From Lachnospiraceae bacterium (GTDB lineage: Bacteria; Bacillota; Clostridia; Lachnospirales; Lachnospiraceae), in contig JAAUZJ010000047.1 in the NCBI GenBank assembly GCA_014804695.1, positions 1-64,000 on the forward strand: a stretch of DNA of 64,000 nucleotides. The letters run 5' to 3'. Below the pieces are notes generated by a model that saw only the letters and a program-made list of their open reading frames with translations, was not told the DNA's origin and ran no database searches. This document shows positions 14,982 to 42,382 of this stretch, in pieces (the first letter of the stretch is position 1; every line of letters starts with the position of its first letter). The translations under genes and the position numbers were made by a program.

Positions 14982-15021
14982 TAGGTTGTGGAAATAACCA
15001 ACCTTGCAATTGCCAATACCC

Positions 15022-15106
15022 AGACCTTAGTTAATATAAATAAAAAGGCGGGGTGAGTTCGCTCCTGCGGTCGAACCCCGTTTTTTATTTATATTAACTA
15101 AGGTCG
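15022..15106. repeat. Long palindrome with conserved GC core, copy A
   Basis: A 23-bp perfect stem (ACCTTAGTTAATATAAATAA at its base) closes on the core CGGGGTGAGTTCGCTCCTGC followed by GGTCGAACCCCG. The core followed by T6 acts as a candidate terminator on both strands. It lies between ftsY and ilvA. Related copies are at 27667-27750, 35797-35939 and 42249-42382. Confidence 0.85.
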
Positions 15107-15162
15107 TACTATTAGCCAAATATGTGACATTGTCAAAGACTATGCCATTAGCCAATAGTTTC

Positions 15163-27629: not shown

Positions 27630-27666
27630 CGTTAATATATTGTCCTTTCTTTGTTATTCTCTAACC

Positions 27667-27750
27667 ACGAACTCGAACAAACTGAATAAAAACGGGGTTC
27701 CGATGCGGTGGCAAGTCACCCCTTATTTTATTCAGTTTGTCCGAGTTCTG
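27667..27750. repeat. Long palindrome with conserved GC core, copy D
   Basis: Arms GAACTCGAACAAACTGAATAA and its near-complement close on a core which, read on the minus strand, is GGGGTGACTTGCCACCGCAT then CGGAACCCC. The arm sequence is unlike copies A-C but still pairs (one mismatch and one small offset). It lies between glyS and alaS, in inverted orientation relative to copies A and B. Confidence 0.8.
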
Positions 27751-27755
27751 ATTAT

Positions 27756-29144
27756 TTAGAATTCAAATTTATCCGCAAAATAAGCATACAATTTATCAAT
27801 CTCTACGCGCTCCTGCTCCATGGAATCGCGGAAGCGTACTGTTACACAGTTGTCGGTCTCGGAATCGAAATCATATGTAACGCAGAAAGGTGTACCGATT
27901 TCGTCCTGTCTTCTATAGCGTTTTCCGATATTTCCCCTGTCATCGAATTCACAGTTATATTTTTTACATAATTGCGTATATATTTTCTCAGCGCCCTCAT
28001 TTAACTTCTTGGACAATGGCAGCACGCCAATCTTAACAGGTGCAAGTGCAGGATGGAAATGAAGTACGGTACGCACATCTCCCTCTCCGATTTCTTCTTC
28101 GTCGTAAGCTGCGCAAAGGAAAGCCAGTACAACGCGGTCTGCACCAAGTGAAGGCTCTATTACATAAGGAACATATCTTTCATTTTTAACATCATCAAAA
28201 TAGGACAAATCCTCTCCGGATGTGTTCTGGTGCTGTGTCAGATCGTAATCGGTTCTGTCTGCGATTCCCCACAATTCGCCCCAGCCAAACGGGAAAAGGA
28301 ATTCAATATCAGTAGTACCCTTAGAATAGAATGAAAGTTCTTCAGGCGAATGATCCCTAAGACGCATCTCATCCTCTTTCATGCCAAGAGAAAGCAGCCA
28401 GTCACGACAGAAACCTCTCCAATACTGGAACCATTCTAAGTCAGTTCCCGGCTCGCAGAAAAATTCAAGCTCCATCTGCTCAAATTCCCTTGTACGGAAA
28501 GTAAAGTTACCGGGAGTTATTTCATTACGGAAAGATTTACCAACCTGTGCAATTCCAAACGGTATCTTCTTACGGGAAGTTCTCTGCACGTTTTTAAAGT
28601 TTACAAAGATCCCCTGGGCGGTCTCAGGTCTTAAATAAACCGTATTCTTAGCATCTTCCGTAACGCCCTGGAAGGTCTTAAACATTAAGTTAAACTGTCT
28701 GATATCAGTAAAATTATGTTTACCGCATGTAGGACAGGGAATATTTTTCTCTTCCACGAAATCTTTCATCTTCTGCTGTGACCAGCCGTCAATAGGCTCG
28801 TCCAGTGTAATATTGTTCTCTGCGGCATAATCTTCTATAATTTTATCAGCGCGAAAACGTTCATGACATTCCTTACAGTCCATGAGAGGATCTGAAAAAC
28901 CGCCCAAATGACCTGATGCTATCCATGTCTGCGGATTCATAAGAATTGCGCAGTCCACACCGACATTATAAGGATTCTCTGTCACAAACTTCTGCCACCA
29001 TGCTTTTTTGACATTGTTCTTTAATTCTACTCCAAGATTTCCGTAATCCCATGTATTAGCAAGCCCTCCGTAAATCTCCGAGCCCGGATACACAAAGCCC
29101 CTCGCCTTCGCCAAAGCTACAATCTTGTCCATTGTCTTCTCCAT
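27756..29144 (-). CDS. glyS: Glycyl-tRNA synthetase, single-chain dimeric type
   Basis: Charges tRNA-Gly (alpha2 form). The start at 29144 (MEKTMDKIV) has GGAGG 8 nt upstream; the track start lies inside that site. Class II motifs are visible: [21 protein letters not shown] (motif 2) and [14 protein letters not shown] (motif 3). A zinc-finger insert has CKECHERF and CPTCGKH. The C-terminal anticodon-binding domain ends [13 protein letters not shown]. The length of 462 aa is usual. Confidence 0.97.
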
Positions 29145-35796: not shown

Positions 35797-35939
35797 TGTG
35801 AAACGGTTTGCCATTGGCACGAACTAAGATATTATAAATAAAAAAGGGGCTCGAACCGCGGGAGCGAAGGTCGCCCCTTTTTTATTTATAATATCTTAGT
35901 TCTGGGTATTGGTAATTTGGTTTGCAATAGTTTCACAAC
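35797..35939. repeat. Long palindrome with conserved GC core, copy C
   Basis: Outer stem ATTGTGAAAC/GTTTCACAA, inner stem GAACTAAGATATTATAAATA with a perfect complement, and core GGGGCTCGAACCGCGGGAGC then GAAGGTCGCCCC (minus-strand orientation of the core of A and B). The element overlaps the 5' end of the track ORF for the M16C peptidase, which argues for the downstream start. Confidence 0.85.
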
Positions 35940-36005: not shown

Positions 36006-36045
36006 AAAAAAACAGGCCTGACACCATATTTTAATGTCAGGTCTG
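36006..36045 (-). terminator. Intrinsic terminator after the beta-helix protein gene
   Basis: On the minus strand CAGACCTGACA and TGTCAGGCCTG pair (one mismatch), followed by T7. It is about 50 nt past the stop codon at 36093. Confidence 0.85.
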
Positions 36046-42248: not shown

Positions 42249-42382
42249 ATTGCGAAACGCCTTTCCAATACCCAGAACTTAGACACTATAAACAAAAGAA
42301 AGGGGTGAGTTCGCTCCCGCGGTCGAACCCCGTCTTTTGTTTATATTGTCTAAGTTCGTGGCATTATACATCATTTCGCAAT
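42249..42382. repeat. Long palindrome with conserved GC core, copy B
   Basis: Outer stem ATTGCGAAA/TTTCGCAAT (perfect 9 bp), asymmetrical loop with CCAATACCCAG, inner 24-bp stem GAACTTAGACACTATAAACA (one mismatch) and core GGGGTGAGTTCGCTCCCGC followed by GGTCGAACCCC. It lies between the rhomboid-like gene and the sigma-like gene. It is the most complete copy and defines the outer boundary of the element. Confidence 0.88.

Follow-up and report, generated by a model that had tools for sequence, protein, structure and literature searches.

Interrupted palindromes of one family are dispersed over a Lachnospiraceae genome of 3.65 Mb in about 70 copies (covariance-model scan, E <= 1e-12), and their arms change fast in sequence, vary from copy to copy and stay complementary. 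It is a real mobile hairpin family at the level of the genus. The most likely source of the matching arms is recopying of the arms during DNA replication, not selection of each matching change, and the explanation that we favour as the probable one is a non-autonomous, MITE-like palindrome whose arms are matched mainly by template switching at the DNA level and which is terminator-like as well.

Results

Four palindromes with a common frame

The window, which is the whole stretch of 64,000 nucleotides analysed, contains, at the places given, all four palindromes that a sequence-only reading of this DNA had reported, as a check of the window sequence confirms (Table 1). Two of them, at 27667 and 35797, are indeed inverted and lie on the minus strand, and covarying outer stems are present in the two copies for which they had been claimed (copy 1, Table 1, and copy 4, TTGTGAAAC/GTTTCACAA). 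The core that had been thought common to the four, GGGGTGAGTTCGCTCCYGC...GGTCGAACCCC, is found in the copies at 15022 and 42249 only, whereas the copy at 35797 has GGGGCGACCTTCGCTCCCGCGGTTCGAGCCCC and the one at 27667 has a different loop within the same frame. What all four share is this frame, which reads CAGA, arm, A tract, GGGG-loop-CCCC, T tract, arm, TCGT. The arms covary as had been stated, but they are not as strongly different as described, most of them carrying CTTAGACAATATAAA(C/T)AAAA, in which the substitutions are paired. At the outer end the arms are almost invariant, with CAGA on the left and TCGT on the right.

Table 1. Palindrome copies and associated features in the window
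Feature	Position	Strand	Basis or sequence
Copy 1, type B core	42249-42382	+	sequence; covariance-model match 42260-42373, 111.8 bits, E 1.2e-22
Copy 1, outer stem	42249-42257/42374-42382	+	ATTGCGAAA/TTTCGCAAT
Copy 1, CAGA	42273-42276	+	
Copy 1, left arm	42275-42301	+	
Copy 1, core	42302-42331	+	
Copy 1, right arm	42332-42357	+	
Copy 1, TCGT	42356-42359	+	
Copy 2, type B core at 15050-15079	15009-15120	+	sequence; covariance-model match 15008-15121, 109.1 bits
Copy 3, type C core, loop GGGGTGACTTGCCACCGCATCGGAACCCC	27653-27763	-	sequence; covariance-model match 91.8 bits, E 7.3e-18
Copy 4, type A core at 35846-35877	35797-35939	-	sequence; covariance-model match 35805-35917, 121.3 bits
Ordinary intrinsic terminator of the upstream gene, separate from and outside copy 4	36017-36041	-	terminator scan

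The elements measure about 110-170 bp and form a layered hairpin with an outer stem, a short stem, the CAGA/TCGT internal loop, an arm stem of 23-25 bp, the GGGG/CCCC stem and a small loop. The sequence of the small loop is specific to the subfamily or species, and other species keep the frame with other loops. When two of the window copies were folded on both strands, the RNA-fold control gave z values of about -9 to -11. A search of the window against Rfam 15 returned no family above the gathering cut-off, and the only matches were sub-threshold chance ones to mir-27 in four loci. Type A copies contain a T-arm-like motif, GGTTCGAGCCCC, and since the window has no tRNA gene, we treat this likeness to tRNA as coincidence.

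Size and distribution of the family

The sequence-only reading had taken the palindromes as one repeat family and expected more copies in the genome, and the search with a covariance model, built from 55 copies, bears this out. An exact search for the core pattern matches the genome 55 times, against none for a reversed-pattern control, and these counts together with the roughly 70 covariance-model copies exclude chance. Copies occur in 8 of the 37 sampled genomes of the genus, with one to more than 60 matches each, and seven diverged copies occur in one genome of another genus of the same family, while the other families of the order, sampled with 24 genomes, yielded none. Thus, the family is genus-restricted and patchy. 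The named carriers are Lachnospiraceae metagenome-assembled genomes, including Butyrivibrio sp. NALB_7823_4 and SC0353_S20_4. Matches to the exact pattern outside the Lachnospiraceae proved to be ordinary short terminators lacking the CAGA/TCGT frame. We found no earlier description of the family in the open-licence literature, and it is apparently previously undescribed.

Several copies depart from the regular build. L013 is a nested copy, and the left arm alone of L042 (950-1063, minus strand) is interrupted by a small inserted hairpin (CAGAAAATTTACTTCGTAAATTATCTG), so that the arms are mismatched there. The right flanks of L003, L029 and L076 carry tandem right-end repeats (TCGTGGCATT..., TCGTGGCAATGGAAT... 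and TCGTGACAGC...) outside the element, which vary between sister genomes. At L195 in genome G007 (about 1600-1770) a second, unrelated palindromic element with internal hairpins, GGCATGAACTCATATG...CATATGAGTTCATGCC, adjoins the family copy, and it is absent from the orthologous site L071 in G021.

Covariation of the arms

Among the 55 copies, 17 of 30 pairs show double changes, and 156 double-changed cells were observed as compared with 31 in shuffles. Sliding the partner by 1-3 columns reduces pairing to half or less. The outer stems covary modestly (self 15.6 versus cross 11.4), and this modest covariation is a point against arm copying. If pairing in RNA were selected, G.U mismatches should outlive A.C mismatches in the transcribed sense. 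Read in gene sense, the mismatches comprise 27 G.U and 32 A.C, so that G.U is not favoured, and over all copies there are 39 G.T and 47 A.C.

Changes at orthologous sites were compared in two species pairs, G000/G061, with flanks mostly 85-95 % identical, and G007/G021, at about 88 %. The 19 usable ortholog pairs, from which the out-of-register L065/L066 and the indel-bearing L031/L243 were left out, contain 397 unchanged positions, 23 double changes from one Watson-Crick pair to another and 21 one-sided changes (8 G.T, 8 A.C and 5 other). By rough arithmetic, a change of about 7.6 % per side would, under independence, give only about 2-3 double changes, mostly unpaired. Arms that failed to covary at orthologous positions would have spoken against the sequence-only reading; with 23 compensated against 21 one-sided changes, its claim of covariation stands. 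Nine of the 23 double changes are of the transversion type, and these count against stepwise selection on RNA because they have no G.U intermediate.

Individual loci are instructive as well. In the pair L099/L264 three changes are compensated and none is one-sided, and in L099 a longer stretch of the arm is mirrored, while in L031/L243 a single-base insertion is mirrored on both arms. In the second copy at L093 the arms are unrelated to those of the family: the right arm has its homologue in sister genome G061 in DNA outside the element, and the left arm, GCCGTAACATGTATAAT, is an inverted copy of this unique flanking DNA. The ancestral state of the left arm has been deleted in G061, and the direction of the event is therefore only probable. 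It is possible, and we suggest it tentatively, that hairpin arms are routinely rewritten by fold-back copying, in which unique flanking DNA may also be captured and become a new arm. The symmetric L282 in G061, with TCGT-type ends on both sides, was also considered as a case of arm copying, but a deletion that fused two inverted neighbours can explain it, and therefore we do not use it as proof.

The same sites bear on a further explanation, in which other dispersed copies take the place of whole hairpins and both arms change together, whether by gene conversion or by transposition more than once to a given site. The high copy number of the family would favour such replacement, and so would L063/L083, where seven paired positions differ at one site between flanks about 92 % identical. 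Here another copy may have replaced the hairpin and so caused the seven double changes, although no donor turned up among the copies compared. However, most ortholog pairs differ at 0-3 positions only, and no donor is visible, since the arms of L099/L264, L268 and L083 occur in no other copy compared, that of L099/L264 being present in a single copy per genome among all sequences compared. Replacement is thus quite unlikely as the general explanation.

Gene context

Copies occur scattered along the contigs, in either orientation, and have housekeeping genes such as alaS and ftsY among their neighbours. The sequence-only reading had placed all four window copies between co-oriented genes, which is correct (all are minus-strand genes), but this setting is not special genome-wide. 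Around 69 copies, 51 pairs of flanking genes are co-oriented, 9 divergent and 9 convergent by simple longest-ORF gene calls, close to the background by intergenic length of about 70, 21 and 9 %, respectively. At the G000 loci (e.g. L001-L052) most type A copies point the same way as the co-oriented genes on either side, whereas most type B copies point the opposite way (18:2 versus 3:11, Fisher p = 8e-5), and the TCGT end is usually near a gene edge, which is the start codon for type A and the stop codon for type B.

It had also been proposed that the stem would act as a terminator in both directions, and the anatomy agrees with this, as it combines a GGGG/CCCC stem with A and T tracts. A T-rich tail follows the GC stem in 66 of 72 copies in the plus direction and in 69 of 72 in the minus direction. 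Terminator-like activity of the hairpin is therefore plausible from its sequence. The placement agrees less well. Terminators would be expected to avoid divergent gaps, and no such avoidance is seen among the 69 copies, as many being divergent as convergent. Copy 4 follows the terminator of the upstream gene and precedes the start of a gene for an M16/PreP-like peptidase, and it is, like L039, behind another terminator and in front of a start codon. Copy 3 takes up nearly all of a 126-nt gap between an alaS-like gene and a class II tRNA-synthetase gene, and many copies leave before the downstream gene only the space that fits a ribosome-binding site.

Presence and absence between sister genomes

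The part of G061 examined contained both flanks of 34 copies. At these sites the element is absent in 17 cases, intact in 13, half deleted in two and chimeric in two, the last at one locus. Such presence and absence at orthologous sites, together with many dispersed, mostly intergenic copies that have no coding capacity and ORFs on both sides, is what a MITE-like element would show. Some absences are clearly deletions, as at L032/L119 and L045/L261, where the sister genome retains half elements with one arm deleted. At L090 the G061 site (L292) consists of a perfect hairpin of short length, TAGGCAGTTGC-AAAA-GCAACTGCCTA, and its stem agrees with the outer stem that the copy in G000 carries. Either an element entered a hairpin at this site or the inside of one was lost, and both events would explain what is seen; the other empty sites have no matching hairpin. 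No clean target-site duplication was seen at the sites inspected, and no cognate transposase or autonomous partner element was found. A comparison of L025 (about 1570-1640) with L296 shows a neighbouring gene whose stop codon seemingly comes from the element end (TAGGTAATTGCG), replacing the last codons seen in G061.

Discussion

Our results argue that the covariation of the arms is genuine, and we infer that it is better explained by copying of arms in DNA than by selection alone. The sequence-only reading had concluded that kept pairing implies selection on the structure. This conclusion is not supported, since G.U is not preferred, nine of the 23 double changes are transversions, indels appear in mirror image on both arms and one arm repeats a unique flank in inverted form, all of which are predicted by DNA arm copying and not by stepwise RNA selection. 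In the mechanism we propose, polymerase template switching inside the hairpin (quasi-palindrome correction) would copy a change in one arm into the other in a single step and could recruit flanking DNA as a new arm, while the repeat would be gained and lost between sister species. In transcripts that cross the element, its best-conserved part, made up of the A/T tracts and the GC stem, may work as a hairpin that is terminator-like or sensitive to RNase. Template switching is known to create and maintain hairpins (PMC8794818) and to homogenise arms and invert spacers (PMC8604942), and it is an established mechanism in E. coli as well (PMC7202029). Different species nevertheless keep both the CAGA/TCGT internal loop and the inner TAA/G loop, and since unlimited arm copying would erase them, some selection or constraint from mobility must also act.

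Among the alternatives, selection on RNA structure survives best. It takes the element as a bidirectional intrinsic terminator or another structured RNA at gene ends whose arms are matched by ordinary compensatory evolution. Besides the T-rich tails in both directions, it is supported by the arm positions adjoining the GC stem, where the A/T tract is the most conserved, and by the type B copies, which usually begin 16-38 nt from a stop codon. The mismatch spectrum, the transversions and the placement among genes speak against it, and on balance we consider it unlikely as the main cause. Far less probable still are recombination sites read as folded single strands, either integron attC-like or of the REP kind moved by a RAYT transposase: the internal asymmetry is kept and structure is conserved over variable sequence, but the scattered copies form no cassette array, the Y1 transposase (PF01797) has no match in the copy-rich G007, G021 and G061 and one IS200-sized match in G000, and with no transposase tracking the element we rejected a RAYT/REP origin.

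Arm copying in a mobile hairpin can be set beside several known systems. The EFAR repeats of Enterococcus faecalis are miniature palindromic elements whose targets are stem-loops, and after integration their ends retain part of the target stem. L090 and its hairpin site in G061 look similar, although here such a pattern is clear at one site only. In the Bacillus cereus group, bcr1 and the intergenic repeats related to it have been described as MITE-like (PMC3446304), and our family is like bcr1 in its size of about 150 bp, its many intergenic copies confined to one group and its long hairpin, often in transcripts between genes. This comparison is by features and not by sequence, and no sequence relation is expected. 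Unlike in bcr1, the arms of the present family vary from copy to copy yet stay complementary, and the loops are replaced between species. The multi-base compensated changes and one-step reverse-complement copies are like template-switch (quasi-palindrome) mutations (PMC8794818, PMC8604942, PMC7202029), which have been described for single genes and reporter sites, whereas here they affect many independent copies of a dispersed repeat family. REP/BIME palindromes are likewise dispersed and intergenic, but they are 20-40 bp long with GTAG or CGTC tags (PMC3733652), and the present elements are longer. Unlike REP/BIME with RAYT, the copy-rich genomes G007, G021 and G061 are without a Y1 transposase.

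To prove that an RNA structure is functional, one relies as a standard on covariation. The family described here would pass the covariation test by a huge margin, and its mismatch spectrum and ortholog changes nevertheless point to arm copying at the DNA level. If this is true, strong covariation in such a family arises as a by-product of mutation and does not prove that an RNA is functional, which, if confirmed, would be a warning for RNA-motif discovery. Confirmation would also provide dozens of independent template-switch events that are datable in closely related bacterial genomes, and the carrier genomes would then be a natural assay of template switching in bacteria. The Lachnospiraceae, for their part, gain an abundant and apparently undescribed repeat that is placed between many neighbouring genes.
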